Assembly (NCBI GenBank): GCA_032622095.1
Contig: CP136062.1
Location: 227,120,578-227,184,577 of the forward strand
DNA: 64,000 nt
Direction: 5' to 3'
Source of the DNA: Siphonodentalium dalli
Taxonomy: Eukaryota; Mollusca; Scaphopoda; Gadilida; Siphonodentaliidae
The translations under genes and the position numbers were made by a program. This document shows, in pieces, positions 24,110-49,023 of the stretch (position 1 is its first letter; every line of letters starts with the position of its first letter). Below the pieces are notes generated by a model. It saw nothing but the letters and a program-made list of their open reading frames with translations. It did not search any database and was not told the DNA's origin.

Positions 24110-24573
24110 TTAACCCTTTCAGTGCCAGGTCAGATTTTTGTATCAACCCATATACCCTGTGCCAATGCATTCTCTTATATATGCGAGTCGACCATAGGTC
24201 GCCTCGCATATATAAGAGAATGAATTGGCCTAACAATTTTTCATAATTTTTTATTATTTTTTACAATTTTTCACAATTTTAATAACTTTTTATTATATTC
24301 TTTAACAGACTTATTTTGTAGGTTTAGTGCCAGGGAATCTTTCGTTTTTCATGGGCATCAACATTATTACTATGAATACTTGGTGATAGTTTTGAGTTAT
24401 AAAATGTCCCTACGGTTTTAACCAGTTTGTTTTTAAATTCGCTATAGCATGCTTAAGCATACCCAAAACAAATTCAACCCAAAAAACAAAACAAAAAAAA
24501 ACTTTTTTAGGGCCGATTTTACAGACCGTAAATTAGGGTCGATGAGATCGGCCCCTGGCACTGAAAGGGTTAA
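24110..24573. mobile_element. TTAA-type MITE, family C
   Basis: Termini TTAACCCTTTCAGTGCCAGG and CCTGGCACTGAAAGGGTTAA are perfect inverted repeats starting with TTAA. The first ten bases equal those of family B; the rest differs. Inside, after TATACCCTGTGCC, lies one copy of the hairpin module (24161-24229) followed by an AT-rich run of ACAATTTTT words. The second, inverted hairpin seen in families B and D is absent. Confidence 0.85.
24161..24229. repeat. Hairpin module in family C
   Basis: A 33-base arm, GCCAATGCATTCTCTTATAT then ATGCGAGTCGACC, is followed by loop ATA and then the inverse arm GGTCGCCTCGCATATATAAG...TTGGC. There is one internal A/C mismatch (GAGTCGACC against GGTCGCCTC), plus a GAATTGG variant. 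The same module is found eleven times in this window. Confidence 0.95.
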
Positions 24574-24649
24574 TAGAAAGTTCAGAATGATTCCTATTCA
24601 ATGATGGTCAATTTTCAGATAATAAGGTAGGTTGTTGAGCTTATTATAT

Positions 24650-24745
24650 GAGCATTCCCCAAGGGATTATTTAGCAATTATAATTTAGTTTATAATCTGA
24701 GCATTCCCCAAGGGATTATTTAGCAATGATAGTTTAGTTTATAAT
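24650..24745. repeat. 48-bp direct duplication
   Basis: Two copies of GAGCATTCCCCAAGGGATTA then TTTAGCAAT, AT-rich sequence and GTTTATAAT stand head to tail. Confidence 0.9.
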
Positions 24746-25155
24746 GAACTTCTAATTGTGTAGAAGTAATTAGGAAGGAGTGATATATCAATAAATACAC
24801 TCTTGTGACTAGGTTTTCTGCACAAAATGTGTAGCCCTGCTGCACAATCATTCATATTTGATCTTAAACATATTTGTATAGTATATATATGTGTAGTTTT
24901 ATATACATAACAATTTTACACAATAAATGGGTCAATTTCTACACATTTATACACAAAGGTGTGCATAAAATCAAGAATGTAAGTTCAGTATTCAGGCCTG
25001 TGGGTATGTAGTATTGATATATGGAGATTTATATGTTAAAACTTTCATGGCGTACAATGGTACGTAATATTTCGCTCTGTAATGTGTGAGTTTTTGTTTT
25101 AACTGAACAAACCAGGGTCGTGGCGTAGTTGCAACAGTCACACAAAAGAGTCTAA

Positions 25156-27465
25156 GGGTGGATACACACATGCATGTAATCTCTGTATGTAAAATACATG
25201 TATTTTACATGGCCATACCAATAATTGACAACATTAATCACCTGCGCGCGAGCTGTTCATTGTTTCCAGGCCAGACAAGTGAGTAGTCATAAGCGAAATC
25301 AAACTCTCTGCTATCAGGACATTTAAGGCCAGTCCAAAACATGTCTTCTCTTACGAATGTGGAAATTAGTTAAGTTTGTGTGATAACTGACATTTTATTA
25401 ATGCACATCACCAGAAGCGACACATCTGGTGTATACACGCAGGCTTGATATAGAACATTTTCGACCATGATGCTTGCTTGGCGTGGGGTTTCGAAAGCTT
25501 CAAATCGCTAAGTGACTTAGTTGAATGTATCGGTCGGAATAATCTGGGCAAGAAGGTACAATATATGTTTTACTTAAATAGCTCAGAGTTAGCCACCCCG
25601 TCTGGTAGCTTTCGGGGTCATATATAGCCCCAAGTCGGTGTCATGTTTAGCCCCTGCGTCAGGAAATCCTGATAATATTGCCCCCATGTTGGGAATCATA
25701 GCCCCTGGGTTGGGGAACTCCTGGGGCCATCATCGGTATAAAAATCAGGAGAAGACTGACAATGATTTGAACAGAAAGTCCAACATTTGGGTTATCGCGC
25801 GAACAATTATTCTAAGCGGCCTTGCGACTTCGTTCAGTCAACGGTTCTCTGCACGATCAGAGCTTGGCTCACTGTGGTCAAACATAGCCGCAATGATTGG
25901 GTTGTCAACGGACACATATTACATGGTCTGTATGATCCATGTAAAACGCCAAATACACGATAATTACAGAGATTACATGCATGTGTGTATCAACCCTAAG
26001 GGTTGATACACACATGCATGTAATCTCTGTAAATGTCGTGTATTTGTCCTTTTACATGGATCATACAGACCATGTAATATGTGTCCGCTGACAACCCAAT
26101 CATTGCGGCTGTTTGACCACAGTGAGCCAAGCTCTGACTGTGCAGAGAGCCGTTGACTGAACGAAGTCGTCAGACCGCTTAAGATAATTGTTCCCGCGAT
26201 AACCCAAATGTTGAACTTTCTGTTTAAATCATTGTAAGTCCTCTCTTGATTGTTATACCAGTGATGGCCCCATGATTTCCCCAACGCAGGGGCTATGGTC
26301 CCCAACATGGGGGGCTATATTATCACGGAAGCTACCGGACTGCCCATTGCATATTACCTCGACGGGTGGGGTGGGGGTATGCAGCACGCTAAGTCCTGAC
26401 CCCCTCCACACATGAAGCCACCCCTGACTTATAAATATTGTAGTTGACAGTCATTTCTGTCGTGTCTGTTTGCTACGAGTGATTATTATAATATTCAGCA
26501 ATTTATGCTATTCATATAATTATGAACATAGTATTACAGCTTTATATTTGAGAGTAAGAAGGTGGTGTTGCTGTGTGTCTTCATTCGGAGGAAAGGGTTG
26601 TCTAGCTGTACGAGCTCCCAACTACGTCACCTTTCCTCTCTTGTGTTATATATGTATACGCAAAATTTACAACTATGGAATATTTAAGTTAAACATATTG
26701 TACATTAATGCCGGATGATACATTCAACTAAATCCATTCGTTATTCGAAGCTTTCGAGAACCAGCCCCTCCCTCAATAATGGATTATGGTCCAAAATATT
26801 ATAATTCAAGCGTGTACAAGCTAAAATAGTAACAGTTAGGAACTTGTTCAACCTTTAATTTGGTTTGAGAAACATATACTGTTATGTAAATTCTGCCATG
26901 GGTGAAAAATTAAAAATATATATATTTGCATGGAAATCCCAATTGAATGTTATCACATGCGCTCGCTCTGAAACTATCCGAGGAATCTCAACGAACCGGT
27001 ATTGTCTGTCTTAATTTTCCAATGCCTGTTATTCATGGCATGAGAGCACCGCATCGGATTGTTATTGGGACATTAAAGACTCGTGTATCATAATCGCCAT
27101 AAAAGAGCTTCAAATTTTGCACATTTTATTTTTATTTTGGATGACCCTGAAATGACGAGAAATAAATCGAGTATAAAATCGACGGACTCAAATCCACTTT
27201 TCGAAATGAATTATAAAAAACTCGTGAAAAATAGCAACAGATATCAGATAGGATTTATTCATTTCGGCATCCATAAAATAATTTATGACTGGCCTGAAAT
27301 TTCTTGATTGCAGTTAGTTTGATAATGGCTTATAACTACTCATTGGTCACGCCTGTTGAAATGGACCGATCGCGCGCAGGCGATTACTACTATAAATGAT
27401 TGGTGTGACCATGTAAAATACATGGATTTTACATACAGAACTTACATGCATGTGTGTATACACCC
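25156..27465. mobile_element. PIF/Harbinger-like element with TAA target duplication, 2.3 kb
   Basis: Termini GGGTGGATACACACATGCAT and, inverted, ATGCATGTGTGTATACACCC are flanked by TAA at 25153-25155 and 27466-27468. Matching termini extend inwards: ATACATGTATTTTACATGG, the CGCGCG(A) block and ACTCATTGGTCAC versus GTGAGTAGT. The 3-bp TAA duplication is typical of PIF/Harbinger. A second copy enters at 63282 and runs off the window. It matches the right half of this one (ATTTCAGGCCAGTCATAAA, AAGTGGATT) and also the left half (TTATCTGGGCAAGAA). The middle is occupied by a large palindrome. No transposase is seen, so it is non-autonomous. Confidence 0.75.
25594..26372. repeat. Long palindrome with two transposon ends fused at one TAA
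   Basis: Arms of roughly 390 bases mirror each other around position 25998. The centre reads CAACCCTAAGGGTTG: two GGGTTGATACACACATGCAT ends pointing away from each other and sharing a single TAA. Arm identity is high (CCCAAATGTTG(G/A)ACTTTCTG, AGAGCTTGGCTCACTGTGG), with small indels. Each arm, read from outside in, holds an open frame of over 110 codons (25638-26006 plus strand; 25973-26308 minus strand) with similar residues. I recognise no domain in it. Confidence 0.9.
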
Positions 27466-28079
27466 TAAGGGCAGTAATCGCCACAAAAGTTTAAACAACT
27501 AAATCCTCATCGTTCGTGAATACTATATCCACAAGTCGGAATTCTTAACTATAACATTCCTTGTCTACGATCGCTGTAGATTGTATTCCGAAAAAGATTC
27601 TCAAGCTTCTCTTATTGGCCGTCATGCAGCAGACTACATGAAACAGAAGGCACCACAATGCACATGCGCTACGCTCTTACACAATCGTGTGTAACAAAAT
27701 ATACACAATATGTGTAGAACTGCTCTTGGTCAATGTAATGATATGTAAAACTACACATTGCTGTGTGTATTAACCGGGTTTGCACATTTGATGTGCAATC
27801 GTTTCTACACATTAGTTTTAAGAGTGTATAAACCTATCCTCGTGTAAATATGTGTATATGATGATGAGAATCGTATACGAGATATCTCCACGAGTCTTTG
27901 ACGAGTGACAATTTTTAGTAAAGTATTATCACCATGAAATAACCTACTTATAGCACACAATAGGAAATGTATTATTTACTGAATTTAAAATCAACAACTG
28001 CATGCCCAATTTCGTCTTGATTAAACACGGATGATCAGTATACTCATACATGCGTGCATGATATCGGCCTAATCAACAC

Positions 28080-28661
28080 CAGGGTCCGCGCTGGACCGAA
28101 GTTTACTTTTGCCACATGCAAATATTTTTTGCCAAATTCGTTTAGAATTTGCCAAATATTATCCCTGATAGTATCATTTTCAACAACCTTGATTGAGTCT
28201 CAAGCTTCAACACTCGCGTTTGATATCGATAGAAAAGCAGTTAGTTAATGATTATGATCCCATCTATTGTGGTTTATCATACAACAATAAACCAATCACC
28301 GAACAATACAATGGTAGAAGAGTTGCTTCGTCAGAAGGGAACACCACAAGAGGATTAGCTATGTAAACACCACCATCACACCAAATGAGGGTAATCCCTC
28401 CACCCATCGATACTAATGCTATCAAAATAACTGCATCTTAATGGAGGTGTTATTTTTTTCCGAAACCATATAAATCACAACTAATATAATTACATTGTAA
28501 TAATTTCCTAAAATGAATGGTATTGATAGATAGATATTTTTCAGCTTTGTTGAGGAATTAAAATGTGACTTGCCAAAACTTTTGCCAAATGAATATATTT
28601 TTTGCCAAATGTGAATTATTTTTGCCATTGGCAAATTTGGCAAGTGGCAGGGCGAACCCTG
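28080..28661. mobile_element. hAT-type element, second family (582 bp)
   Basis: Left end CAGGGTCCGCGCTGG and right end CAGGGCGAACCCTG are inverted repeats with two or three mismatches. The flanks ATCAACAC (28072-28079) and ATCAACAT (28662-28669) are an 8-bp target duplication with one difference. The sub-terminal sequence repeats TTTTGCCAAAT words. A 64-codon frame in it shows no transposase motif. Confidence 0.8.
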
Positions 28662-28760
28662 ATCAACATTACCTGGACAATTAGATAGAAAGTATTTTCG
28701 GTCACTTCGCTAGATATAAGACACCAGACACGCACAGGGCATTGTGGCTTTATTTGTTTA

Positions 28761-29615
28761 TTAAAGGGATACTTTACACTAAATCCGACCAGAGTTGGGA
28801 CCATCTCCTTTTATACTCAACAGATTATATGCAACAAATGAATGAATTTTAGCCATGGATTAGTACAAACTCATGTGCTCTTTATATGAACGATGCAAAC
28901 AACATGGTAATTATAATGAAACTGAATGTATGACTGGGGTCATAAAATTCATTTTCATTATATTTACATACTAAGTGTTGTCATCACTAAATCCAGCATT
29001 CTGATTGGTCGGCGCCCACATGGCTAGTTGCAGTTATTTCTCGGTGAATGCGGAACGCCTCATAACACCAAGCTCATAACACCATCGATACGTCATTGGG
29101 TTTGGAAAGACGAACGCGTAATGTTTTGGGCGCATTTGGACTCGCGCAGGATTGACTTAATACATCATCGGGTTTCAATATGAAGAGAAATTGTTCCTAT
29201 TAACTATTGCCAAGGGTGCTAGCTATTTGGGTATTTTGGGCTGTTTTTGTCACGATACACTTTTCGATTTAAATACATTTACAAAAGTGGCTTTTTCGCT
29301 AAATGTATATAAATATAAGGATTAACTGTCATGTGGAGTATTTTTATGGAGATGTAACCGTGAGGTAAGTGGTCATAACTTGTATGTGAAACCCTTCAGG
29401 TTTTACACAGGTTATGTCCACTTACCTCACGGTTACATCTCCATAAAAACAGTCCACATGACAGTTAATCCTTATATAATTACCACGTTGTTTGCATCGT
29501 TCATAGAACACATAAGTGTATTTTGCACTAATCCATGGCTCAAATTCATTCATTTGTTCATTCATTCACTAATCCATGGCTCAAATTCATTCATTTGTTG
29601 CTTATATTTACTATG
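28761..29615. mobile_element. MITE family A copy (A2), interrupted
   Basis: It starts TTAAAGGGATACTTTACACT and follows family A through CTCAACAGATTATATGCAAC and GATGCAAACAACATGGTAAT to about 28968. About 500 foreign bases follow, and family A resumes at 29476 with ATAATTACCACGTTGTTTGC. It runs to about 29610, with a short local duplication of CTCAAATTCATTCATTTGTT. The right terminus is lost. Confidence 0.8.
29318..29476. repeat. Foldback at the edge of the A2 insert
   Basis: AGGATTAACTGTCATGTGGA and TATGGAGATGTAACCGTGAG in the left arm pair with CTCACGGTTACATCTCCATA and TCCACATGACAGTTAATCCT in the right. The loop is only a few bases near 29394. Confidence 0.9.
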
Positions 29616-29619
29616 TTGT

Positions 29620-31480
29620 TTGAGATATCCTGTGTCTTTTTGCAACATACCATACGACAATGACCAATTCAGCCCTGTCATGACGAGATCTGCGCTAGTG
29701 CAGCATTATAGATCATGTGCCATTGCAATCTATATACTAATAAAACTCAATTCTGTTTTGTTCGTTTCGTTGTTTGTCCGCTTGTAGGCGATCAAACGAC
29801 TGGATCATCATAGCTGATTTTTTTTACATAGTGGTAATTTGACTCGGTGAGCATTATAAATAGGTACCGTGTACCTCAGACCAGCTGAGACTCCACGCGG
29901 AATGTAGTTAACATGTTGTGCACAACATATCAAATGGAAGACATACAAGAAAAATACTGACCGGACACCACTGACAATAATATAAGCTTTGAAGGCTTTC
30001 GCGGTGTCTTAAAAATTAACTCACAAAATCGGTATTAAATGGGTCAAAATTGTTGTGTTACAAGATGTATTCATGATTCGAGAGCTCCAATTAAAACAAC
30101 ATTCATAATCTAACTTAATTTATTGGTGTGGGGGCAAGTGTAGGGAATTGAGGTTCTTGTATACTATTTTAGTAGAAGCAAGTCATATACATGAAAATGA
30201 AGCTTAGGTTCCAAAGAATCTTTTTAGACTCTATTCCAATTTTTTAATCTACGTGACATTGAAATTCAAGATGGCCGCCAAAATCACAATTTTGGCCATA
30301 AAATCACTCGTTCTGAGATTTGACACATTCATTTGTGAAATAAAACCAAGTTAACATACTATAAAAACATTATTTCATAACTGTTCACCTATTAGTCACT
30401 AATTTCCTTCATCTACCACATTTTTCATCGAGAAAAATGCTTTTGATGAAAAAAAGTCCCAGTTTTTATGGCAATTTATTTGTATGCAATAGACCATACT
30501 TTAGGTTTAGTATTATTAACATGCTCATAGACATAGGCTTATAATGTGGTCACTTTTTTTCGATATATATATATATATTTTTTTTAGATCATTAACAAGA
30601 ATATATTGATGAATATTTAACGATTAATTATCTGAATATCAATTAAAAGGAACATAGAGTAGTAACAACAATATGGTGGTCTACATATATATAAGGCTGG
30701 AATTTTCTCACTTATTGTTCAACGACTATATCACGTAATTAGCCCCTAAATCCGGCATCATATTTTTAGTAAAACACATGTGTATTACCAGCACGCGCAG
30801 TGACGTAAGAGCTTAGCACAATGATGTTGATGCAATACCGGGACTTTATTATTATGTTAATTAGAATATAAGTATGATATTCGATTTGTGTTGGGTTATT
30901 TAGTGTTGATTGAGATAAACATGGGTGATAAGGATTTTGTCAACATGAAAATGAAGGTGTCTTTACTTCCTCTTTGGTTGTGATAAGGAGATCAATATTA
31001 ATGTTTTAATCCCAGCCGTTTTGAGATGGTTTTTCTTCTAAAATGTGATTATGTATAAATTGGGACTCAAATTCGTCATATTTATATACGAAATGTATTA
31101 ACCTCGTCCACTACAGCTCGGCTCGAATCGAATTTAGTGCATTGGGCTTATAAATGTCGTATGTAATTGGACTCATTGGAGATCCCCTATATCACTAATG
31201 GCTTTGGGCCTTTGCAATATTGTTAAAAATCCAAAAGTGAATTATAGGGAAGTTTATAAATAAGAAATAAATCCATTTTATTATTGATAATTAACCCAAT
31301 TAATCACCAAAAACTGTATGAAGTAAATATATCGGAATAGGCGAAGGCACCACATCCATTGTGATATGTTCAACGGGTCTTAGTGCGTGAACAAACAATA
31401 ATTTTCTCAAATACGATAAATCGTGTCATTCGGGCAACATTCCTTACCACAGACACGTTAATGTGTAGACTAAAATCTAA
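29620..31480. other. Mostly unassigned; one THAP-like start
   Basis: At 30039 an ATG opens MGQNCCVTRCIHDSRAPIK, whose CCVTRC resembles the Cys-x4-Cys of a THAP N-terminus. The frame soon ends, with no convincing donor. CTATATACTAATAAAACTC at 29730-29748 resembles some Helitron 5' ends, but no 3' end was found. The rest shows no gene. Confidence 0.3.
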
Positions 31481-31855
31481 ATAAAAAGCAGGTGGAACTC
31501 TTCATGATACATTTTAAAATTGTTCTTGTAAATCGTATTTCAATAGCTTCGGGCAGTATATATAATTGCTGCGATCAAACACAGTTCTTGGACCCGTTAA
31601 GCAGAGGAACCGCTCGCCACTGCATGCATGATGTGGTTGGGATTCAAAGGCGAATATTATTAGGTGTATTTTGGAGCGCAAACCGCCAATTGGCTTTAAC
31701 TCAATTAACTAATCACCCAAACTGGCAAAACAAAAACCTGAATACATCTTAAAATTGTTCTTGTAAATCGAATTTCAATAGCGAGCGGATGATTCGGGCA
31801 GTAATTTCTGCAGTCAAACACAGTTCTTGGATTCGTTATGTGGAGGAGGAACCAT
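31480..31855. repeat. Dispersed repeat with internal duplication
   Basis: ATTGTTCTTGTAAATCG(T/A)ATTTCAATAGC occurs twice (31509 and 31753), each followed by CAAACACAGTTCTTGGA. The words CGAATATTATTAGGTGTATT and TTTGGAGCGCAAACCGCCAA recur at 40225-40265, 42855-42900 and 62080-62130, so this belongs to an interspersed family of unknown type. Confidence 0.65.
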
Positions 31856-33460: not shown

Positions 33461-33826
33461 TTAAGCCTTTACCCAACAGAAGGACCCTGTGCCAATGCAT
33501 TCTCTTATATATGCGAGTCGACCATAGGTCGCCTCGCATATATAAGAGAATGCATTGGCTTAACACATTAAAAATTATCAAATTGTTAAAGAATGTAAGA
33601 AAAAATGGTAAAAAGTGTTAAAAAAATATTATTTTTAGGCCAATGCATTCTCTTATATATGCGAGGCGACCTATGGTCGCATAACTGTAACCATCACAAT
33701 GTGGTCAATGAGCCGGTTCCAATGATATCCATATTTGTATGGTTTTATTGAGACAGACCCAAGATAATTTAGGCTGTTGCAGCTTTATTTGGCCGTTTTT
33801 GGCCGGTTTGTTGGGTAAAGGGTTAA
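33461..33826. mobile_element. TTAA-type MITE family B, copy B1
   Basis: Ends TTAAGCCTTTACCCAACA and TGTTGGGTAAAGGGTTAA. The left hairpin module is full (33491-33559). The right, inverted module (33639-33680) lost its outer arm and the CACAGGG tip: GACCTATGGTCG runs straight into CATAACTGTAACC. Between the modules lies an AT-rich core. Confidence 0.9.
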
Positions 33827-33902: not shown

Positions 33903-34262
33903 TTAACCCTTTACCCAACAAACCGGCCAAAAACACCCAAATAAAGCTTCAACAGCCTAAAATATCTTCGGTCTGTCTCAATAGAACCATACACATATGG
34001 ATATCATTGGAACCGGCTCCTTGACCACATTCTGATAGTTACAGCTATGCCCTGTGCCAATGCATTCTCTTATATATGCGAGTCGACCATAGGTCGCCTC
34101 GCATATATAAGAGAATGCATTGGCCTAAACAAAATCTTTTTTTAACACTTTTTACCATTTTTTCTTACATTCTTTAACAATTTTATAATTTTTATAATGG
34201 TCGACTCGCATATATAAGAGAATGCATTGGCACAGGGCCCTTCTGTTGGGTAAAGGGTTAAA
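33903..34262. mobile_element. TTAA-type MITE family B, copy B2 (opposite orientation)
   Basis: Ends TTAACCCTTTACCCAACA and TGTTGGGTAAAGGGTTAA. The long sub-terminal side (CTTCGGTCTGTCTCAATAGA, GGATATCATTGGAACCGGCT) is on the left, so it is inverted relative to B1, 76 bases away. The left hairpin is complete (34056-34124). The right one keeps only its outer arm (34199-34231). Confidence 0.93.
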
Positions 34263-34346
34263 TTAACTTCGGAACAACGATTTTAAAGGGGGACTACACT
34301 AAATCCGACCATTTATGGGACCATCTCCTTTTATACTCAACAGAAT

Positions 34347-34885
34347 CAGGCCATGCGCACGGGTGTAGATATCAAACAATATGTGATCCTCCGTAGGATA
34401 GGGTATCATATAATATGTGATCCTCGTCTCAGGAGTCACTCGTGGCTCAATGAAGGCAGGATCATATATCAAAATGAGAGGATATGGTGATCCCATGAAA
34501 AGGAGATCACCATATCCTCTCATTTTGATATGTGATCCTAAAATAAGAAAACATTTTTATTAACTAAATAACGGAGATATTTAAAGAAGTGTTTTTGACG
34601 AAATAACGGAAATATTTTAAGACGTGTTTTAAAGAGCGTACCCCAAACCTGCCCAAGCCCACCGACCATATAGAAGAATTTGACTTATATTTCACCAGAG
34701 TTGATCTATTGTGGTGTTGTAATTTCTCATACAAATCGCCGTTATTTAGTAAAGGGACATTCTTTATAGAGTTATTACCCTTCATATCAAATCACTAAAA
34801 ACAAATAAAGATCGCATATCAAAACCTATGTTATCCTCCGTAGGATCAGATATCGTTTATAGTCTACACTCGTGCGCATTAGGTG
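34347..34885. mobile_element. Nested element inside A4
   Basis: It lies between two copies of ACAGAAT (34340-34346 and 34886-34892). That sequence is single in other A copies, so it is a 7-bp duplication, or 8 bp with one change. The ends are CAGGCCATGCGCACGGGTGT and ACACTCGTGCGCATTAGGTG, imperfect inverted repeats. The CA start and duplication length hint at hAT. The words TGTGATCCT and CCTCCGTAGGAT recur inside in both orientations. Two open frames of 73-74 codons show no domain. Confidence 0.75.
34461..34545. repeat. Strong hairpin within the nested element
   Basis: GGATCATATATCAAAATGAG and AGGATATGGTGATC pair almost perfectly with GATCACCATATCCT and CTCATTTTGATATGTGATCC around a loop of about 12 bases (CCATGAAAAGGA). 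Confidence 0.9.
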
Positions 34886-35492
34886 ACAGAATATATGCAA
34901 CAAATGAAGTAATTTTAGCCATGGTTTAGTGCAAAATACAATATTTAGTTCTATGAATGATACAAACAACATGGTAATAATAATGACAATGAAAAAATGA
35001 CTGGAGTCATAAATTCATTTTCATTATAATTACCATGTTGTTTGCATCGTTCATCGAGTACAGGAGTGTATTTTGCACTCACCAATGGATCAAATTCATT
35101 CATGTGTTGCATATATTATGCTGAGTATAAAAGGAGATGATCCCATAAATGGCCGGATTTAGTCTACACCCCTTTAATTAAAAACAATTCAGTTATGAAT
35201 ATCTCCGTTATTTGATCAATATAAATTTGTTTGAAAGAAAAGAAAAACGCTCATTAAAAGAAACGTTTTATATTATTTATAAAAAAAATTAAATTTCTGA
35301 ATATCTCCCTTATTTCGTCAATATAGTCATCATGTTGTGTCCTTCGGTTCAGTATTATGCTTGATATATAGTGGTAGACTCGATGGGCGTATATATACGG
35401 TACATAATTAAGTATATATTAGATGGAAAATAAACATTCGCAAACAAGTACATGTATCTATATCTGATAATGGGGACGAGAGATTGAATATG

Positions 35493-35946
35493 TGACCCGC
35501 AATATCAAATCCAGTCGTAAGTCGGGATTTTTGTACCCTGTGCCAATGCATTCTCTTATATATGCGAGTCGACCATAGGTCGCCTCGCATATATATAAGA
35601 ATGCATTGGCCTAACAATTTTGTATAATTTTTGTTTAATAAATGTTTCTAACAATTTTTAGGACATAAAATAAAAAACATCCATTACACTGCAGGGAGCC
35701 CCACACATATATAGAAGCATATAGAAGAGTGTCGTCTGCTCATGTTTCTCTGGGGCTCTGTATGGGTGAAATTATAAAATTGTTAAAGAATACAAGAAAA
35801 ATTATTAAAATTGTAAAAAATTGTTAGGCCAATGCATTCTCTTATATATGCGAGGCGACCTATGGTCGACTCGCATATATAAGAGAATGCATTGGCACAG
35901 GGTAAAACAAATCCCGACTTACGACTGGATTTGATATGGCGGGTCA
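35493..35946. mobile_element. MITE family D carrying two hairpin modules
   Basis: Inverted termini TGACCCGC(A/C)ATATCAAATCC and AGTCGTAAGTCGGGATTT run about 38 bases and share nothing with families B or C. Inside, TACCCTGTGCC leads into a hairpin module (35542-35610), and the mirror module (35828-35896) ends GGCACAGGGTA. Here the cassette is flanked by TA on both sides. The AT-rich core has an extra insert at 35660-35770 with AGGGAGCCCCA and TGGGGCTCT arms. Confidence 0.92.
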
Positions 35947-35989
35947 AATATATCGCTGATCATGGCTATATCCTTATCTCAAATTAAAT

Positions 35990-36634: not shown

Positions 36635-38015
36635 TTAACGCATAAGTCTCGGGCAGCTATTTTCACTATGTTTTAACAGAAGGGACATCCTTGAAAATGT
36701 CTTGGCGCACAGTTTACAGCCGTATTTCTTAACCTCGCTGTGGGTTTGTAAGTGCGCTCGCAAATTGGACCTGTCCGCAAAAGCACGACCACAGTGCTGA
36801 CAATGGAAAGGTTTTTCTCCTGTGTGTGTTCGAACGTGTCCCTGGAGCAACCAGGGGCGAGAAAACGCCTTCCCGCATAGTTTGCACTTACACGGTAGAG
36901 TGTGTGTTCGAATGTGCATCTTGAGTGCTCCCAAAGAAGAGTAAGTCTTGTCGCAGCTTTTACAAGAGAATTCCTTCTTCACGTGACTAACGCAATGAAA
37001 TTGTTTGTGTTTAGAAAGTCCGCCGAACGTGGCGTAGCTTTTACTACATCCATCGCATTGGTACCGGGGTGGTCCGGCATGAGGAGGTTTGGTTGGCGAA
37101 GGTTCATGAGACCCGTTGTGATTTCGAACGGAAGCAGCCCAGACAGGATGTACTCGATTGGTGACACATAACGCGGAAGCAGGTGAAATGTTATCTGTCA
37201 CTGGAGCTAATACACGTCCGTGTTGTTTGCCAACCATCTGTTGAATTTGAGCCATTTTAGCACTATAATGGTCGTGTGTGTTATTGAATAATTCCCGTAT
37301 GGCAGCGTTCGGTGCAATATTACAACATTGTGTCAGCTGATTAGCCACACCCTGTTGTGGAGAAACCATAGCGTCTCTGTAATAATTACCAAAAACATTT
37401 GGTAATTTCAAGAAGTCATTTCTCATCCCTTGAACATACTGGTGACAACCGACTCCCAGATGGTATCTTGTAAATTTGGTCGGCGAGAAGGCACTAATTG
37501 GTGGGATCCTTGTAGAGTCAGAATATTCCCCTGGCGAACTCCCTGGGGAGTCTGAATCACTGCTGTACATTGTCATTCTTCCGTTGAGGATACTACTGTC
37601 TCTGTAATCACTCCCCGGGGATGTGTCTGGTGAATCCACACCCGCACGGAGCATAGAATGGCCATCTGGGCTTCCTGCCCCCACTGATTCAGCGACACTA
37701 ATAGTTTTAGGCTCAGTTTTCTTGTCTGGTAAAGCATATGGACGGAACAAGTCTTTTCTGTTTGAATTAACGTCGGTTTTCGGCATATCTTTTTCACGTA
37801 TCATATTTCTTGGGTACTCTCTGTTCGTGTGCAATATCTGAAAAAATAAGTAAACGTTTATGTAAGTACAAACGTCTCGTAAACAATTTCCGACGGGCTT
37901 AATTGAAGTTAATTCAACTTGTGTATAAGTAAAAGGTCGACTTCTCAATGCCGCATAATGGACACGGTATACTTACTGCACTTGTCGCCCTAACCGCGCC
38001 ATGAGGCTTGTCCAT
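36635..38015 (-). CDS. snail: Snail-family zinc-finger transcription repressor
   Basis: The main exon (36635-37837, minus) encodes 400 residues, with an acceptor TTTACTTATTTTTTCAG at 37838-37854. A phase-0 intron of 139 bp leads to a GTAAGT donor at 37971-37976 and a possible first exon (37977-38015, [13 protein letters not shown]), giving 413 residues. Five C-terminal fingers: ZF1 272-295 ([20 protein letters not shown]), ZF2 303-325 ([18 protein letters not shown]), ZF3 329-351 ([20 protein letters not shown]), ZF4 357-379 ([20 protein letters not shown]), ZF5 385-408. ZF1 and ZF5 end His-x4-Cys as in Snail proteins. Fingers 2-5 match the family nearly invariantly. Snail factors bind CAGGTG E-boxes and repress targets in mesoderm formation and epithelial-mesenchymal change. 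The N-terminal half is Ser/Pro-rich ([23 protein letters not shown]). No SNAG motif and no CtBP-type PxDLS is visible. The first exon is the least certain part. Confidence 0.93.
37838..37976 (-). other. Proposed short intron of the snail gene
   Basis: On the minus strand it begins GTAAGTATACC and ends TTTACTTATTTTTTCAG, both consensus sites, and keeps frame across the join (phase 0). The frame is also open through most of the intron but has no ATG, so retention would not give a normal start. Confidence 0.6.
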
Positions 38016-39362: not shown

Positions 39363-39780
39363 TTAACCCTTTACCCAACAGAACGGCCCTGTGCCAATGC
39401 ATTCTCTTATATATGCGAGTCGACCATAGGTCGCCTCGCATATATAAGAGAATGCATTGGCTTAACACATATTAAAAATTATCAAATTGTCAAAGAATGT
39501 AGAAAATATTATAAGAAAAAATGGTAAAAAGTGTTAAAAAAAGAATTTGTTTAGGCCAATGCATTCTCTTATATATGCGAGGCGACCTATGGTCGACTCG
39601 CATATATAAGAGAATGCATTGGCACAGGGCATAACTGTAACCATCACAATGTGGTCAATGAACCGGTTCCAATGATATCCATATTTGTATGGTTTTATTG
39701 AGACAGACCGAAGATATTTTAGGCTGTTGAAGCTTTCTTTGTATGGGCGTTTTTGGCCGTTTTGTTGGGTAAAGGGTTAA
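39363..39780. mobile_element. TTAA-type MITE family B, copy B3 (most complete)
   Basis: Ends TTAACCCTTTACCCAACA and TGTTGGGTAAAGGGTTAA. Both hairpin modules are complete (39393-39461 and 39555-39623), in inverted orientation around an AT-rich core of TGTTAAAAA/AGAAAAAATGGT words. Same orientation as B1. It lies in the presumptive snail intron. Confidence 0.95.
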
Positions 39781-40954: not shown

Positions 40955-41415
40955 ATTGGTAATTCACTTTTAACTGGTAAACGATCTCCATTTGATATTA
41001 TACTATATCGATTAGTATAACTCAAGATATCTTCATTAGAGTTTAGTGGTATCACAACTTCACAATTCTCGGTTTTGAAGGAGAACTGTTTGTACAAATA
41101 TGGGGGAAATTTTCAAGGCAATGCCGTCTCAATTCCCAGGGTGGATGAAGAAACTATACATAGATTTCGGTTAGAGTGTGTCTAATTACTTTTTGGAAAA
41201 TGTTTGTTCTACTTAATATTTGTAATTCAATTTTAACTGGTGAACGATCTTCCTTTGATATTACATTATATCAATTAGTATAACTCAAGAGTTCGTCATT
41301 AGAATTTAGTGGTATTGTATCTTTACAGACTTCACAGATCTCGGCTTTGAAGAACTATATTTGTTAAAATATGGGGAAAATGGTCAAGTCAATGCCGCCC
41401 TAATGCCCAGAGCGG
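40955..41415. repeat. Tandem duplication (~200 bp units) in the snail upstream region
   Basis: Units 40955-41150 and 41216-41415 share TTTTAACTGG, TATCGATTAGTATAACTCAA versus TATCAATTAGTATAACTCAA, TTTAGTGGTAT, CTCGG(T/C)TTTGAAG and CAATGCCG. The preceding words AATGTTTGTTCTACTTAA also repeat (40550 and 41200), so the unit is really about 250 bases with E2 inserted in the first copy. Confidence 0.85.
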
Positions 41416-41487
41416 ATTTTGGTAAAGATAATACCATTGGTGATAGACATTCGATGGAATTATGGAAAAGAAAATAAGTATACTTAC

Positions 41488-41590
41488 TGTACGTTTCTGC
41501 TAAATCCGTTGATTATAATAGAATCATTTCACAAGTTTCTTTTCGTATTCTAAGTTGTCTATTCTCGCAAAATCTTCATAAGAACAAACA
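41488..41590 (-). other. Candidate distal non-coding first exon of snail
   Basis: On the minus strand it ends AGCAGAAACGTACA followed by GTAAGTATACTT, a consensus donor, about 100 bases below a TATA box. It has two very short upstream frames (six and four codons), so it would be untranslated. Spliced to the acceptor at 37838, translation would begin at MIREKDMPK and give 389 residues. This is inference from position and signals only. Confidence 0.4.
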
Positions 41591-41599
41591 AAAAATCTC

Positions 41600-41770
41600 T
41601 AGGCACCTGAACTCTTTTATATCGGAATGCTAACGTGGAACTCAAGCACTAATTAGTAATTAAGTAATGAACCTACCCGATTTTATCAGCAAACAAATTA
41701 CCGCCGTTTATTTTTTTCAACCAATCAGGATGCTGGATTGCTGCAGCAGAAGAGAAGCCCCGCCCATCTC
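41600..41770 (-). promoter_or_regulatory. Promoter-like block with TATA, CCAAT, GC box and E-box
   Basis: On the minus strand, in order: a GC box GGGCGGGGC (about 41757-41765), an inverted CCAAT (CTGATTGGTT, about 41722-41731), a TATA box TATAAAAG (41614-41621) and CAGGTG (41604-41609) just below it. The block is locally GC-richer than its surroundings. Spacing is normal for a start site near 41590. CAGGTG is the classical Snail-binding E-box, so autoregulation is possible. A second CAGGTG lies at about 41839-41844. Confidence 0.5.
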
Positions 41771-42160
41771 TCTGTCGTCTGCGACTCTCGCCGACCATCT
41801 GGGTGAACTGACAGGAATCGTGGTTCGGCGTTTTTCAACAGGTGCGTTTCTAATCCCGGGCCCGACATGTAACGTTTAACAAATTGGTTCTTGTTTGGTC
41901 AAACGAGGCTTAGAATGTTTTAACAGATTCCAATTTGCGCTTAAATTCCACCGCATCTCCCCGAACATTAATACATAATTGAACAAGTGGCAAGTTCAAG
42001 ACTCGGTGAATCGAGAGACTGTTTTCTTGTGTGAACGTTTACATAATAATTATTTCCCGTAAGGGTACTTACTTGTCATATATAACGCCACACGGGAGAA
42101 ACGCCTCAATTTAATTTGGTCATAACGTCACATTGCATGTTCAATGCTCCAAGAAATTTT
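41771..42160. other. Upstream region, no gene seen
   Basis: It contains the second CAGGTG at about 41839 and otherwise AT-rich sequence. No coding or repeat signal is supported. Confidence 0.4.
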
Positions 42161-42161
42161 A

Positions 42162-42236
42162 GCCAGAACGCCAACTAAATTTAGTCAGAACGCCACATAA
42201 ATTTAGCCAGAACGCCACATAAATTTAGCCAGAACG
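42162..42236. repeat. 22-bp short array, about 4 copies
   Basis: AAATTTAGCCAGAACGCCAC(A) units in tandem, with AACT and GTCAG variants. Confidence 0.9.
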
Positions 42237-42459
42237 CCGAATCAGACTGATTAACGTATAACGTATTTTTTTAAATATCAGACAACGAAAGCACAAACGC
42301 TCTTTATGAAATATGACTTGTGTGACGAAATCAAATAATTAGCTATGGCGCTCCTCTCTATCTATTTCCGATGATGTTATAAAAAATGGTGTTTTTGTGT
42401 CAACAGTATAGATGGAGAAAGAGAGAAGAGTATACGGAAAGTAGAAATAATTAAATCTA

Positions 42460-42700
42460 AAACAGACATGCCTCATTCGAGCTTCCAAATTATGTCTACG
42501 AAATTTGGAAGGAGGTATAGGATCGACTGACAAATACACGAAATATTGACATACCGGCTTCATATGCTCTGAAAAACACTTTCCACCGTCACATGCAGCA
42601 ATTTCCATCTGTTTTCAATTCGTCGTCCAGAAGGAAACAAACACTCCTAATTTATTTCTACATCAGTAATAGACTAACACGGATTACTATTTTCTGCCGT
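42460..42700. repeat. Dispersed repeat, relatives at 45870-46100 and 48340-48520
   Basis: Shared words are CGAGCTTCCAAATTATGTCT / CGAACTTCTAAATTCTATCG, AAATACACGAAATATTGA, ATACCG, TTTTCAATTCGT and ACTAACA. In each copy it is followed within a few hundred bases by AACGCTCTTTA or a variant. An 89-codon minus frame here is not supported as a gene. Confidence 0.55.
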
Positions 42701-43021
42701 GAAAAGTTTGTTTTATTGTTTGGGACCCAAACATCGTGTTCAAAGTTGTATTTGTTATGACTTCAATGCGTCTTTCTGTGACATGATATAATGCTCGTAT
42801 AAATGTAGATCAAGTCATTATCTACCAATTTCGATATACAAGTGAAAATTCAAAAGCAAATATTATTTTGTGTATTTTGGAGCCCAAATCGCCATGAGGC
42901 TTTAAGCAGGGTATTAAGCATTGCGGAAATGACATCATTCTCCTGGTCTCCAAGTTTTCTTGAAATTGTATTTACCGTCGTTTTCTATCTTTATGTTATT
43001 TGATAAGAAATTTAATACAAT

Positions 43022-43104
43022 GATCCAGTGACTGCACCCATATAAGGCGATTCACGCACATCATATACTGATCCAGTGACTGCACCCATATAAGGCGATT
43101 CACA
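43022..43104. repeat. 35-bp direct repeat pair
   Basis: ATCCAGTGACTGCACCCATA plus TAAGGCGATTCAC occurs twice, 44 bases apart. Confidence 0.95.
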
Positions 43105-43204
43105 ATGTTCGCGTAATGTTTGGCCTCATCTAACCTGGTTTATTACTCGCCTTGATCACATTATTCGGATGAAAATAGGCCGGTAAGTATAAATTTAGTT
43201 TTAT

Positions 43205-43640
43205 ATACTAAAGTATACAAGATACAAGATTTTATTGCAATAACACTTCAATTGGTAGTTGCAAACATATAAAATACACATAATTATAACAGTAATGACA
43301 TGAATTTTAAACCATAACCTGACTCACTCAAAATTTATTTTCTGTCTACTCAATCATAAGTTGTTCATATAATTATTATGCAATTAATAAACTCTGTCGC
43401 CTTTCAATGGACCGGATCATGTCGCATATGATATTTATGGTGGCATTGTGCCTATTTTCCATTATGAAATGGAATTTACTGTCATTCTATGGAAATCGGT
43501 TGTGCACTCGCCTATTGCTGCGAAACAACTAATGCGAAAGGTCTTCGAATGTCGGACAATTCATAACAAAGTGTGGTTCGGTTTCAACCATATCTCACAT
43601 ACAGGACATATATAGTCTATCCTCTATTTATGACGGGGGC
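43205..43640 (-). pseudogene. Non-LTR retrotransposon 3' fragment (R4)
   Basis: Near 43560-43625 the minus strand reads MVETEPHFVMNCPTFEDLS, the His/Cys motif found near the C-terminus of non-LTR RT proteins (E..FHF...CP.F...R). It is followed by stops. Lower coordinates run into AT-rich 3' UTR ending in a CTTGTATCTTGTATAC-like tail at about 43205-43230. Confidence 0.65.
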
Positions 43641-43644
43641 TGTT

Positions 43645-44660
43645 TGTGTTCTATTAGAAGAGGTGTCGAAGTGACATAAATTCATTGTAAGTATTCGAAG
43701 AACAAATATCCGCGAAAACGCTCTTTATTAATACCAAATCAGAATTCATGTAACAAATTAACAAACTCTTTATTGCAGCATCGCGTAGAAAATGTCTTGT
43801 CTTCCTCTGATGGTAAACCTTATCTCTTCCCTTCCACATGCTTTGCTGGGTTTTTATAATTTATGTAGATCGATATTTCATTATATATAGTTATTGTTAT
43901 ATCCTTAGTGTAAATAATAATAATAATAATATTATTTGAACAAAAAAAAGCTGAACATCACATTGACACTTTATGCATAAACAAACAAATAGCTTAAATG
44001 AGGATGCGATAACAAGCCAAAACATATGGCTTTTATCAAAATCATTCCTCTGGAAATTACCCCAAGTTACCCCAAGGTTCAATACAACGAGCTATATAGT
44101 ATAGGGTAAAGAAGACAGGAATGTGAAAATAGTTCTGCGTTTTCTCATAGATGTTGGGAAGATAGTTCGTTGAGTGCAGGGATGAGAAAGAGGGAGGTGT
44201 GATAATAAGGAGAAAACAATAAAATATATTCGTTATTCCTCCAAATTGAAGGGCAGGTAAATTTACATGTGTACATTAATTTTATACATTATGTTCAATA
44301 TAATGTGCGTCTACTATATACAGTAGTGTTGTGGCACAACTGAAGCTAGAATGTTCACGATAGCTTAGAATTGTCAGTCCCAAGATTCAGACGAATAATC
44401 ATGTGATTGTTGCTTCTAGGAGAGTGGCAGAGTTCCATCTCTGAATAGAGTGCACACATTTAGTTAAAAAAAACTGGCAATGTCTATTAACAGGCAATGT
44501 GCATTTCCATCGTGTGAAGAGCTGTGGTATACTTGGTGTGTGGTGCCCCCAAGAGCGAACGACAAGAGATTTTTAATGGGCAGTGAATAAAGTGATATGA
44601 ATATGTTTACGCCATGACGATCAAATATCACATCCCAAAGATGGTTGCGCATGCTGGTCA
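43645..44660. other. Spacer
   Basis: It includes AACGCTCTTTATT at 43717-43729 and a TAATAATAATAAT microsatellite at 43914-43930. No gene is seen. Confidence 0.4.
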
Positions 44661-44671
44661 CAACAAACGAA

Positions 44672-45142
44672 GAACAGTTCAGATTCAGATTCAGATTCAT
44701 TTTATTCTGTTCATCGATATGTGGATATATACAGAAACGTTACAGAAAAGGGTATTACAAATATTATGGCATCAAGATATTCAAATATGGCATATAATAA
44801 CAATAAATTTCACCTGAGGAATACATGAGTGCATTATTATATATTTGGTAAGTTCATGGAATATCAGTGTTTTAGCCTCAAGTGTACTTGCCGAAAATAT
44901 CCTGGACTTTCCTTATGAAAGTTGACAGATTCCTAATAATCTTTCTATTTCTAGTTGAATGCGTGAATCATCTCATTGTTGTATATGGTTCCACACATTC
45001 CACACAGAATATTATTGGGATATGTAGATTTATTCAATAGCAGGGCCATATGTCTGCATGAGTTCAGCAAATATATAACGATGATTGTTCTACCCTTCCC
45101 ACCTTCCAAGGTTCGTAGACATGTCCGTTTGGAAGCAAACAA
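44672..45142 (-). pseudogene. Non-LTR retrotransposon 3' fragment (R7)
   Basis: The minus frame 44951-45142 contains NNILCGMCGTIYNNEMIHAF, again a Cys-x2-Cys...His zinc-knuckle-like end. The next frame continues TRNRKIIRNLSTFIRKVQDI to a stop near 44888. The 3' end at 44672-44700 is a (TGAATC)n tail on the minus strand, typical of elements ending in short tandem repeats. Confidence 0.65.
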
Positions 45143-45148
45143 TTACTA

Positions 45149-45757
45149 GATTTACAGCGAGTTGTGGACATCATCAGTCGCCTTACAGACATATTGTGGA
45201 CTATTTCATTGAATAAAACCAATCTGTTAGTATTAAAATATTATCCCCTTTGGAAGAATTTAGCAATGAACTAAGATATCGAAAATTACAAACACATCGA
45301 CTATAACATTTCAGAGAACACAACTGTAAAGTTGTACGCACAAATACAAATATTTATTCGGGACGTATTATTGGACATAAACATGACGGAACTGGTGGTG
45401 CCAATAATAGTCACTGCGTATAATTCCTTTATAACATTGACTAGATTTGCAGCCAGGTGTGGACATTATCAGTCGCTTTACAGAAATATTGTTTCATTGA
45501 CTAAAACCAATCTGTTATAATATAGTATCCAAATATTATCCCCTTAAGACCCATTTGGAAGAATTTGGCAATGAACTAAGATTATCTAAAATTCCAACCA
45601 TATCGACTGTACCATTTCAGAGAACACAACGGTTGAACTACGCACAAATGTAAATATTTACTAATTTATTCGGGACGCATTATTGGACATAAACATTACT
45701 GAAATGATTGCTCCAATAATAGTCACTGCGTGTATAATTCCTTTACAACATTGACGC
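45149..45757. repeat. Tandem duplication, ~300-bp unit, two copies
   Basis: The words TGTGGACAT(C/T)ATCAGTCGC, AAAACCAATCTGTTA, TTTATTCGGGAC, TTATTGGACATAAACAT and CCAATAATAGTCACTGCGT occur in the same order in 45149-45437 and 45443-45757. Confidence 0.9.
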
Positions 45758-46184
45758 TGTTTTCTGACTATTTGGATATCAATCTAGGAAAATAACTTAT
45801 TTTGGCATAATTATTTGTTATTCCATTCGAAACACCTGATCTGAGTGTTTCACATCACTTTAAATGATCGTGGCTAATTTGAATATCCAAATTATGTGTA
45901 CGCCATTTTGTCAGTGGAATAAGATAGGTTGCTAAATACAAGAAATACCCATCACACGCTGTAGCATACATATATATCATTTAAATTCCGTACTACTATT
46001 GTCATAAAAAATTCCCAGCTGTTTTCATTTTGTTCGCCCAGAACTGAGACAAACGTTTTTTTATTATACCATATCAGAAGTACACTAACAAGAAACGCTC
46101 TTTAATTATGTTGATTTTTCAAAATTTTGGGACTTTAATAAGTCTTTATGAAGTCCACATAACAGTAATTTGCGTTTATGTCTG

Positions 46185-47389
46185 GCTACACCATTAGAAC
46201 CAGAAGTCCTTCAGAGAACCCAAAAGGTTCTTCACCTTGTTACAATAGGAGCACCTTATTTGGTCTTCAAAGGACCCCATCATAAGATTCCACAGAAGAA
46301 CCACAAGAGATTCTTCAGAGAACCCTGTTCATAACAGAACAGGGTTCTTAAGGAAACCATAATATATCCCAACATGGTTCTTCAGGGAACCTTTTATTAT
46401 AAGTCTTCACACGACATCGATAGTTCATAAATCAACTTAACAATCGTTCTTCACAGACGTTATAGTTCAGGACAAACATAATTATGTTAAATTGAATGAT
46501 AGGTCCAACAGCGAAATAGCGTACGATGATAATATAATATGTTTGCGCTCTTGCGTATATCGCGACGTTCCGTAAACTTTGAGGTTTTTTATAATAACTA
46601 ATAGATTGTCATGAAATTGAAGCATTTGGGGAATGATATATACATGGCAGCTTACACCTACACATTCCATATACAATTCGCTTAATTTTGGTGTGATTCA
46701 TATTCTTGAATACACGAAGGTTGTGAATTAGTCTGCACTTGAACACATATTTGTGTGTATTTTACGATTAGCCGACGAACGTGCGATAACGTTGTCGGAT
46801 CAACGTATTCAATACGTTGATATTGTAAACAAACTTTTCTCAAGTGTCGTTTTGGTCCAACTATCACTTATTCGACGGGGAGAGCTGATCCGAATAATAG
46901 CTAGGATGTATTTAGATAGAATTATCGAAAGAATTTAACCGATTAGGGTTCATTTTAAGAGAATCGAGTGGAGAAAACTTGGTAACTGTAGTCTGTAGAC
47001 TGTCGACTATGCCCAACCTGACCACCGATCGATGCCGACCCAATGCTGAAACGACTCGCGTCTCCTACTAATTGTTCCAGGAATTCTGCCAGCCGATGGC
47101 ACTTCACTATTGACTAATCATTTAAATTCTATTGTTCAGAGTAACTTACTAAGTTTGCCGCCAAATTCCGATTCCGAATCATCGGCGAATGGGTAATACA
47201 AAATGTATCAACTGCATTATTGTTTGGTCATGAAGAACCCTTCAGCATCCAAGAGAACCCTAGTTACACACCGACGAACCCTATCGATTACAGAGAACCT
47301 TTTCTGACACCGAGGAACCTTTGAGTTCTTACAGAGAACCCTTGAGTTCTTCAAAGAACCCTAAAGAACCCCTAATTCTTATAGTGTAG
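46185..47389. mobile_element. Putative DNA transposon with AGAACC-rich ends
   Basis: The left end CTACACCATTAGAACCAGAA and the right end TTCTTATAGTGTAG are inverted with two mismatches over 14 bases. The sub-terminal 200 bases at the left (46195-46400) and 170 at the right (47225-47380) are packed with AGAACC/GGTTCT words. The middle 800 bases show no coding domain. Target duplication not seen. Confidence 0.6.
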
Positions 47390-47649
47390 TTTAACAATTT
47401 CTATATTATAAATAAGCATTGGAGAGTAGTTCCCATTGATCTTATTATCTGAACATTTCCCTCCACTAAGTATGAATCGTTCAGCACTTATATTATCTGT
47501 TCGTCTGGCTGACGTCTGCCAATTTATCCTGAACATCCCTTCAAATGAATAATAGTCCATTCCTAAGTATATCTTTATAGCTGGTGGGAGAATCTATTTT
47601 TTTCAACGAAAGGGGACCAGAATGTCACCAGATCGAGCTATAACACGAG

Positions 47650-47885
47650 TGAGCAACGGGGATTTAACCCTTTCTATACTGAATGGATTCTCCCAGTCAG
47701 TTATAAAAGTCAACATTGGAATGGCCTATTATGTATATGAAGATTTTAAGCCTGATATAGTATGTACAATTGTGCAAGTTATACCCCGGTTTAGTTCCAT
47801 TTCTTTGTAAAAATGGATTACCCCACTCAGTTATATAAGTCAACATTGGAATGGTCTATTATTAATTTGGAGTTATATTCAGGTG
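47650..47885. repeat. Dispersed repeat, two copies here and one at 24015
   Basis: TGAATGGATTCTCCCAGTCA ... CAACATTGGAATGGCCTATT (47678) and AAATGGATTACCCCACTCAG ... CAACATTGGAATGGTCTATT (47811) match each other and 24015-24075. Confidence 0.85.
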
Positions 47886-48573
47886 ATAAAAGTAGACGAC
47901 AAACATACTACAAGATGATACAAGAGGAGTAGGACTTATATCATTTGGTGGGAAATGTTCAGATAATAAGTTCAACAAACGGTCTATTGTCGTCTGCTAA
48001 ACATATTATCTGAATATTTCCTACGGGAACTAATCGTCGATGAGTATTAGCATATAAAGCGTTAATACATCCCAAGCGACAAAGGGGAGCAAACTTAACA
48101 AAAGCCCCTGGTCTTGTTGTTTAATCCCATTTCCAATCAATCCATATTTACTATTCTATTTATTACTGTCAAAAATTGTGCTAAATGTTTATATATATAT
48201 TATTATGATTGGAATAAAATATGTTTACTCTAAGCGACAACGCGCATGCGCAACGACAAGACTATATATAACGAAATATAGTTCATGGTCTTGAATCTTA
48301 TCTTGTATTTATGTACATTGAATGGTATTAAACGGGCATGGCTCTTTCGAACTTCTAAATTCTATCGAAGTAATTTGGATGAAGGGATAAGATAGGTTGA
48401 TAAATACGCGAAATATTGATATACCGTCAGATATATTTTCCAGCTGTATTCAATGTGTGCACACGAGAAACCAACGCTCGTTACTTCTACACATAAGGAC
48501 CTGACTTGTCAGGAACGCTCTTTATTGTTCCGTGCCGAGGATAGTTCGGGACCCGAACGTTCTCATCGATTAC

Positions 48574-49023
48574 TTAACCCTTTACCCAACAAACCGGCCA
48601 AAACCGGCCAAATAAAGCTTCAACAGCCTAAAATATCTTCGGTCTGTCTCAATAAAACCATACAAATATGGATATCATTGGAACCGGTTCATTGACCACA
48701 TTGTAATGGTTACAGTTATGCCCTGTGCCAATGCATTCTCTTATATATGCGAGTCGACCATAGGTCGCCTCGCATATATAAGAGAATGCATTGGCCTAAA
48801 AAAAAATATTTTTTTAACACTGTTTTTTACTCTTTAACAATTTTATAATTTTTTCTTACATTTTTTAACAATTTTTATAATATTTTTCTACATTCTTTGA
48901 CAATTTTATCATTTTTAATATGTGTTAAGCCAATGCTCTTATATATGCGAGGCGACCTATGGTCGACTCGCATATATAAGAGAATGCATTGGCACAGGGT
49001 CCTTCTGTTGGGTAAAGGGTTAA
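48574..49023. mobile_element. TTAA-type MITE family B, copy B4
   Basis: Ends TTAACCCTTTACCCAACA and TGTTGGGTAAAGGGTTAA. It has the same orientation as B2. The first hairpin is complete (48727-48795). The second (48929-48993) has a 4-base deletion in its inner arm. The core is AT-rich, with ACAATTTTATAATTTTT words. Confidence 0.95.

Follow-up and report, generated by a model that had tools for sequence, protein, structure and literature searches.

Nested miniature inverted-repeat transposable elements (MITEs), one lying within another as in the case described here, are familiar from grasses, where they are scattered events and the same insert is not known to be the founder of several large families; the interiors of MITEs, for their part, are often treated as filler of unknown origin. 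The closest published analogue that we found is MER6, a Tc1/mariner-type MITE carrying a foreign non-coding block, the V domain of a short interspersed element (SINE), which has a V-SINE as its donor and was spread by multiplication of its host (PMC6887750). AgaP2-P12MITE of Anopheles is built from parts of different elements, with ectopic gap repair proposed for the interiors, and the Anopheles P-MITE families number from 5 to 310 copies (PMC1562414). KolobokP, of bivalves and other animals, is a mobile unit with short inverted ends of its own, found both by itself and terminally in a larger TTAA element (PMC9587614), and the satellite-bearing Helentrons of oysters disperse a shared repeat block as cargo of non-autonomous elements (PMC7492417). 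Here we describe a cassette built on a 69-nucleotide hairpin in a 64,000-nucleotide stretch of the genome of the scaphopod mollusc Siphonodentalium dalli (assembly GCA_032622095.1, contig CP136062.1, positions 227,120,578 to 227,184,577 of the forward strand; hereafter, the window), where it forms the core of MITEs with different ends and target sites.

Whereas MER6 has one host MITE (and a variant) and a known donor (PMC6887750), the present cassette is carried by at least four families of two target classes; and where the ends of AgaP2-P12MITE come from two P subfamilies (PMC1562414), in the present case the ends vary around an unchanging core. In KolobokP the paired units are direct rather than inverted, the interior encodes a transposase, and Kolobok ends in general read 5'-RR and YY-3', unlike the ends considered here, which start with CC (PMC9587614); the blocks reported from oyster Helentrons are tandem repeats, not a hairpin pair within inverted-end elements (PMC7492417). 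Nested and composite MITEs are already known, and what is new here is the scale and the crossing of target classes: among the top matches listed for the open-access literature, no title or abstract start dealt with one core common to TTAA and TA MITE families. A single interior with different ends and target sites, present in six-figure copy number, amounts to a natural experiment on how MITEs are born, by nested insertion or as repair-made composites, and annotation of such repeats by internal sequence alone would merge elements that are probably moved by different transposases.

The hairpin and its host families

The 69-nucleotide unit folds by itself into a hairpin of 32 pairs with one internal mismatch (−54.3 kcal/mol, an energy matched by 0 of 200 shuffled sequences). 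In its usual form the cassette consists of two such hairpins facing inward around an AT-rich core, with the ends CCCTGT...ACAGGG, and its 14-base end, CCCTGTGCCAATGC, is found exactly six times on the forward and four times on the reverse strand of the window. Eleven hairpin sites, nine near-full and two half, are distributed there over four elements of a family termed B, one of a family C and one of a family D (Table 1); all eleven lie where a first-pass annotation of the window had placed them. The same annotation described hairpins that are usually paired and bounded by CCCTGTG and CACAGGG, an arrangement that is typical but not general, C having a single hairpin and the copy at 33639 lacking the CACAGGG boundary.

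The mismatch is a T opposite C (on the other strand, A opposite G) rather than the A/C recorded earlier; as had been stated, it is identical in all nine near-full window copies once the left and right hairpins are brought into one orientation. Across 40 aligned hairpins the T–C mismatch is present in 39, the remaining one having C opposite C. The hairpin alignment excludes L011:5083-5182 and partial hairpins and keeps L011:8466-8543, although this copy is misaligned at its end. Repair of one palindrome arm from the other was rejected, the mismatch being repaired in 0 of 40 hairpins. The single founder cassette postulated by the first-pass annotation is supported.

In the whole genome (2,226,750,531 bases in nine contigs, or 2.23 Gb), CCCTGTGCCAATGC occurs exactly 168,509 times (84,399 on the forward and 84,110 on the reverse strand; reversed control, 0), with TA preceding it in 23,897 + 24,058 cases (28.5%), and a 31-nucleotide pattern of the apex, with 25 fixed bases that include the T and C of the mismatch, gives 127,959 matches (64,025 forward and 63,934 reverse; control, 0). 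Outer contexts were read in the window, in a sample of 20 chosen 10-kb stretches (200 kb, at round-number positions on all nine contigs; its copies are called random below) and at 40 listed loci (L031-L070) picked via exact matches to the 14-base end. Loci L001-L010 overlap one another and were excluded from most counts, three being retained in the first counts of hairpin conservation; L053, L056, L058 and L070 are repeats of other loci, and were kept out of the divergence and hairpin-versus-arm counts and retained in the counts of TA junctions. The 200-kb sample contains 25 cassette-bearing elements, some of them cut or decayed: 5 B, 3 C, 5 D, 10 of a further family, EF, one solo cassette and one unassigned (L025:3404). 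In one scan neither an end nor a hairpin turned up in nine of its 20 stretches. When the sample is compared with itself, the depth at the hairpin exceeds 50, a value that the palindrome inflates by about two, and no other repeat goes beyond 12.

Listing the outer contexts, as the first-pass annotation had proposed, placed the cassette in the three families named there and in a fourth, EF, that it had overlooked; instead of sharing one outer terminus, the copies of the window, the 20 sample loci and the 40 listed loci lie in hosts B, C, D and EF. B, C and EF occupy TTAA sites and have piggyBac-like CCCTT ends with the common tip TTAACCCTT, and D occupies TA sites. TTAA is present at both ends in 11 of the 12 B, C and EF copies examined (one right edge, cut one base too far, is still TTAA), and the left end of the twelfth, an EF copy in L034, is decayed. 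For D, all 8 two-ended copies have TA at the left and 5 of the 8 have it at the right; among 3 single-ended copies, TA stands at the left in 2. Judged by sequence, B, C and EF have the target site of putative piggyBac-type MITEs, and D that of a Tc1/mariner-type MITE, a superfamily of which it is a candidate member. Assignment of B, C and EF to the Kolobok-type TTAA elements was rejected, their termini being TTAA-CC as against the 5'-RR/YY-3' required by the definition in PMC9587614.

The two EF ends are TTAACCCTTCCATGACTGGAGC and TTAACCCTTTCATGACGGGAGC; EF usually carries a hairpin variant with a different apex, and in some EF copies (L064, L065) the apex is the one seen in B, C and D. The tip TTAACCCTTT is common to B and C, which differ only after it. 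Beyond the TTAACCCTT tip, the closest pair of ends from different families is reached by 30 of 500 shuffles, that is, it does not align above chance, whereas the two ends within B, within C and within EF are each reached by 0-1 of 500; the two ends of D, which stands outside the shuffle test, match each other in a separate comparison. The unrelated ends claimed for B, C and D in the first-pass annotation therefore stand for the sequence outside the cassette and beyond the tip, but not for the tip that B and C have in common. Mean divergence from consensus is 2.5-2.8% for the ends of B, C and D (16, 14 and 27 copies, respectively), and these low values, combined with the failure of ends to align between families and with the use of TA rather than TTAA by D, largely refute the idea of one ordinary family with diverged ends; we regard it as very improbable, even if B, C and EF, which all start with TTAACCCTT, could share a remote piggyBac ancestor. 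The E and F ends diverge by 8.4% (14 copies) and 9.0% (10 copies), higher values that indicate an earlier multiplication of EF.

Most improbable of the explanations weighed here is an assembly artefact, in which collapsed or folded hairpins would have been copied into several contexts. In both half hairpins of the window the break is close to the loop, a place at which palindromes can disturb sequencing, and four loci of contig C1 are repeated elsewhere on it; set against this are nine long contigs, six-figure counts, families with target sites of their own and scattered ordinary mutations in the copies. That one cassette is carried by families of two target classes, TTAA and TA, is well supported.

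Cassette boundary and origin of the composites

Whichever of the six outer ends (Bs, Bl, C, D, E or F) is considered, the shared sequence starts at CCCTGT, six bases outside the palindrome. TA precedes the cassette in 31 of 31 classified D junctions, as the earlier observation of TA on both sides of the D cassette would lead one to expect, and in 11 of 12 from C; these counts leave 70 of 165 matches unclassified (31 of 69 and 39 of 96), mostly inner arms read from the core, the outer matches among them being solo cassettes and single variants of C, D and F. A search for solo cassettes with TA edges, likewise suggested by the first-pass annotation, yielded three candidates: L014:6946-7305 and L059 are bordered on either side by TA with T/A runs, and L057 (of which L070 is a repeat), having lost one side, has TA on the surviving one. 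Solo cassettes lie at C2:30006946 and C1:3672192. All three candidates have the D-type core. The flanks of the window D element, joined across the cassette, form a near-perfect palindrome, so that the cassette occupies the middle of an inverted repeat. That the cassette once moved by itself is suggested by the TA at its edges in D, in C and in the solos.

Cassette-free hosts were sought throughout the genome with exact patterns, for D with 11-base flanks separated by a gap of 2-24 and for B with flanks separated by 0-16. The D pattern occurs at two places, one of which retains letters of the core and is an internal deletion, while the other, whose centre reads T3A9 and which has one arm interrupted by an 11-base gap, could be either an empty copy of some age or a deletion; the B pattern occurs at three, each of them retaining letters of the cassette. 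At least half a hairpin is present in each of the 19 B, C and D elements of the sample and window, and at one D end of the listed loci (L062) no more of the cassette is kept than its outermost bases. Since cassette-free B and D are nearly absent, the present B and D families appear to have been founded by copies already holding the cassette, and with only two and three such places no invaded MITE population is left to see. This near absence argues against a flourishing MITE family having been invaded, and is compatible both with a single nested insertion in each founder and with a composite made by repair; each family seems to have been founded by a composite copy.

Considering the common boundary, the different outer ends, the two target classes, the relative ages and the near absence of cassette-free B and D, we favour, with moderate confidence, an explanation in which a non-coding passenger repeatedly became the core of elements with usable ends and was then copied as a block. 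The cassette would be a discrete unit with the defined ends CCCTGT...ACAGGG that, on several separate occasions, came to lie inside an element whose outer ends suited a transposase, piggyBac-like (TTAA) for EF, B and C and TA-type for D. Each composite would have founded a family, copied as one block by a transposase recognising the outer ends, EF being the first to hold the hairpin and B, C and D following later; the composites would be copied by two kinds of transposase, and the cassette may once have moved alone into TA sites, a step that fits D, C and the solos and gains no support from B or EF. More tentatively, the cassette might be described as a hyperparasite of non-autonomous transposons, one 75-bp sequence that has repeatedly gained ends of the TTAA and TA classes, is copied by unrelated transposases and is the deepest dispersed repeat of the sampled part of the genome.

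Several observations weigh against the passenger explanation. TA precedes the cassette in only 1 of 33 B junctions (Bl, 1 of 17; Bs, 0 of 16) and in 0 of 13 E and 0 of 6 F junctions, so that insertion into TA is not demonstrated for B or EF. Solos make up 1 of the 25 cassette elements in the 200-kb sample; beyond the TA they are bordered on either side by T-runs, a feature shared with D that makes their true ends uncertain, and the left end of the L059 solo is altered. C has one hairpin, and a complete two-ended unit is consequently not needed there. The comparison with empty sites proposed by the first-pass annotation went against it, as exact short-gap patterns run over the whole genome for D and B, C and EF not being searched, returned no clean empty site, four of the five places keeping core or cassette letters. 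The hairpin is also missing from all of 10 piggyBac transposase loci, read over 1.4 kb on each side of the conserved domain. The idea put forward in that annotation, a TA-inserting MITE that invaded other MITEs, is hence only partly supported, by the TA at D, C and the solos and not by B or EF, by the cassette-free places (two for D, three for B) or by the small number of solos.

The main rival is an exchange of ends by repair: a transposon with B, C or D ends would have been excised, gap repair would have used a cassette elsewhere as template, and the resulting composite would then have spread. Such a course explains why B and D without a cassette are nearly absent, why TA is missing in B and EF and why the cassette of C is truncated on one side, and a scheme of ectopic gap repair has been proposed for Anopheles P-MITEs, which include a MITE with ends from two subfamilies (PMC1562414). 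Random repair joints, however, would not place all six types of outer junction at CCCTGT, nor is TA on the cassette edges in D and the solos in its favour; we consider this course unlikely, if the most serious of the alternatives to a passenger that repeatedly became the core of other elements.

Variation in the hairpin and outer arms

The hairpin could instead be a working part of the elements, such as an enhancer of transposition or a site bound by the transposase, that selection maintains in every host family. Its changes were compared with those of the outer arm with the 14-base search end excluded and the copies separated by source, counting junctions rather than elements, requiring most of the outer end and hairpin to be aligned and skipping the T-run of D. 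In the B copies of the window the hairpin is invariant and the arm is not (0 of 224 against 26 of 592 positions changed, p = 0.00043), and B copies from the listed matches show a weak difference in the same direction (3/363 against 24/847, p = 0.033). Random copies, by contrast, drift alike in hairpin and arm, with 6/305 against 15/700 for B (p = 1), 2/183 against 3/132 for C (p = 0.65) and 10/549 against 9/307 for D (p = 0.34). When window, random and listed copies are pooled, a difference persists in B (9/892 against 65/2139, p = 0.00066) and there is none in C (p = 0.28) or D (p = 0.42). Selection on the hairpin, or its homogenisation, which first counts had suggested in the form of strong conservation, was for these reasons rejected, less completely so for B. 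Of those first counts, the one for C was distorted by a single misaligned copy (L011) and was set aside.

Other properties bear on a working part in both directions. Four stem pairs are changed on both sides, mostly at the EF apex, which differs from the other apex by paired changes; this number is reached by 62 of 500 shuffles, whereas none of the 500 attains the number of cells changed on both sides (16) or the covariation score. In C, D, E and F, 42-46 bases separate the start of the cassette from the element end (by the query strings as written), but a fixed spacing was rejected because it fails in B, where the distances are 24 bases at one end and about 147 at the other. The hairpin is the deepest repeat in the 200-kb self-comparison, yet hairpin-free TTAACCCT families exist, such as the TTAA family X, which matches in 7 of 20 sample loci and in the window. 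The piggyBac transposase domain PF13843 has at least 128 matches in the genome, many of them without stops, and piggyBac may be active or recent there; of 10 loci read, four showed ends, namely TTAACACGTTGAGTGCC at two loci and TTAACCCTTTATCTGC at two, whose likeness to C and B is confined to the first 11-17 bases. The lack of a hairpin near the transposase at all ten loci speaks against a working part. On this evidence a selected function in every host family is improbable.

Two other candidates were considered. An RNA gene was rejected, as no match to any of 4227 Rfam families exceeds the gathering score in the window, and no match pointing to a phage or viral origin was found in viral, genome and phage contig collections, a result of little weight given that these are non-animal collections.

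Features of the window and other observations

Table 1. Cassette-bearing elements and their parts in the window, with the positions at which the 69-nucleotide hairpin unit, or half of it, is recorded
Feature	Coordinates	Strand	Hairpin position	Remarks
Family C element	24110..24573	+		TTAA-flanked MITE; one hairpin, truncated cassette core
C, CCCTGT end and hairpin	24155..24229	+	24161	near-full
Decayed EF end, then decayed hairpin start	29673..29725	+		85% to F end over 40 bases; hairpin start too decayed for the hairpin profile to detect
Family B element B1	33461..33826	+		TTAA-flanked; cassette without right outer arm and boundary
B1 left hairpin	33485..33559	+	33491	near-full
B1 half hairpin	33639..33679	-	33639	outer half and CACAGGG boundary gone; break a few bases past the loop
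Family B element B2	33903..34261	-		inverted relative to B1
B2 hairpin, long-flank side	34050..34124	+	34056	near-full
B2 half hairpin	34197..34237	-	34199	inner half gone; inner arm missing up to the loop
Family D element	about 35491..35948	.		TA target; outer arms of ~46 bp; full two-hairpin cassette flanked by TA
D left hairpin	35536..35610	+	35542	near-full
D-type central sequence of the cassette	35650..35775	.		found in solo cassettes too
D right hairpin	35828..35902	-	35828	near-full
Family B element B3	39363..39780	+		complete two-hairpin cassette
B3 cassette, CCCTGT to ACAGGG	39387..39629	.	39393, 39555	both near-full
Family B element B4	48574..49023	-		longer AT-rich core
B4 hairpin, long-flank side	48721..48795	+	48727	near-full
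B4 hairpin, short-flank side	48929..48999	-	48929	near-full; 4-base deletion

Half hairpins that break at or near the loop recur, being found at 33639-33679 and 34197-34237 of the window and in L036, L038 and L069, and this recurrence suggests that the tip of the palindrome is a preferred break point. In an EF copy at L018:2374-2555 several hairpin outer arms stand in tandem and are followed by a full hairpin. On contig C1, cassettes recur every ~11,175 bp at about 820-926 kb and every ~14,558 bp at about 728-786 kb, a regularity indicating that long-period tandem arrays carry them. Four pairs of loci on the same contig (L043/L053, L046/L058, L052/L056 and L057/L070) have the same outer flanks at about 1.79-2.08 Mb and, in opposite orientation, at about 3.35-3.59 Mb; these repeats represent either an inverted duplication or a retained second haplotype.

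Elsewhere in the window, positions 34283-35177 hold another MITE-like element, whose inverted ends, TTAA-AGGGG, are of the 5'-RR form and so recall Kolobok and not piggyBac, and pieces related to it lie near 28761 and 31863. The ~4.1 kb at 15848-19973, between inverted TTAACCCTCA ends, is a TTAA element with a nested retroelement; within it lie the remnant of a reverse transcriptase and a tandem repeat of 54/111 bp. An open frame at 36635-37972, which gives the window the look of animal DNA, encodes C2H2 zinc fingers, its second-best match in the PDB being SNAI1. At 7134-10869, where the GC skew is strong, there is a 34-bp satellite in about 110 copies.

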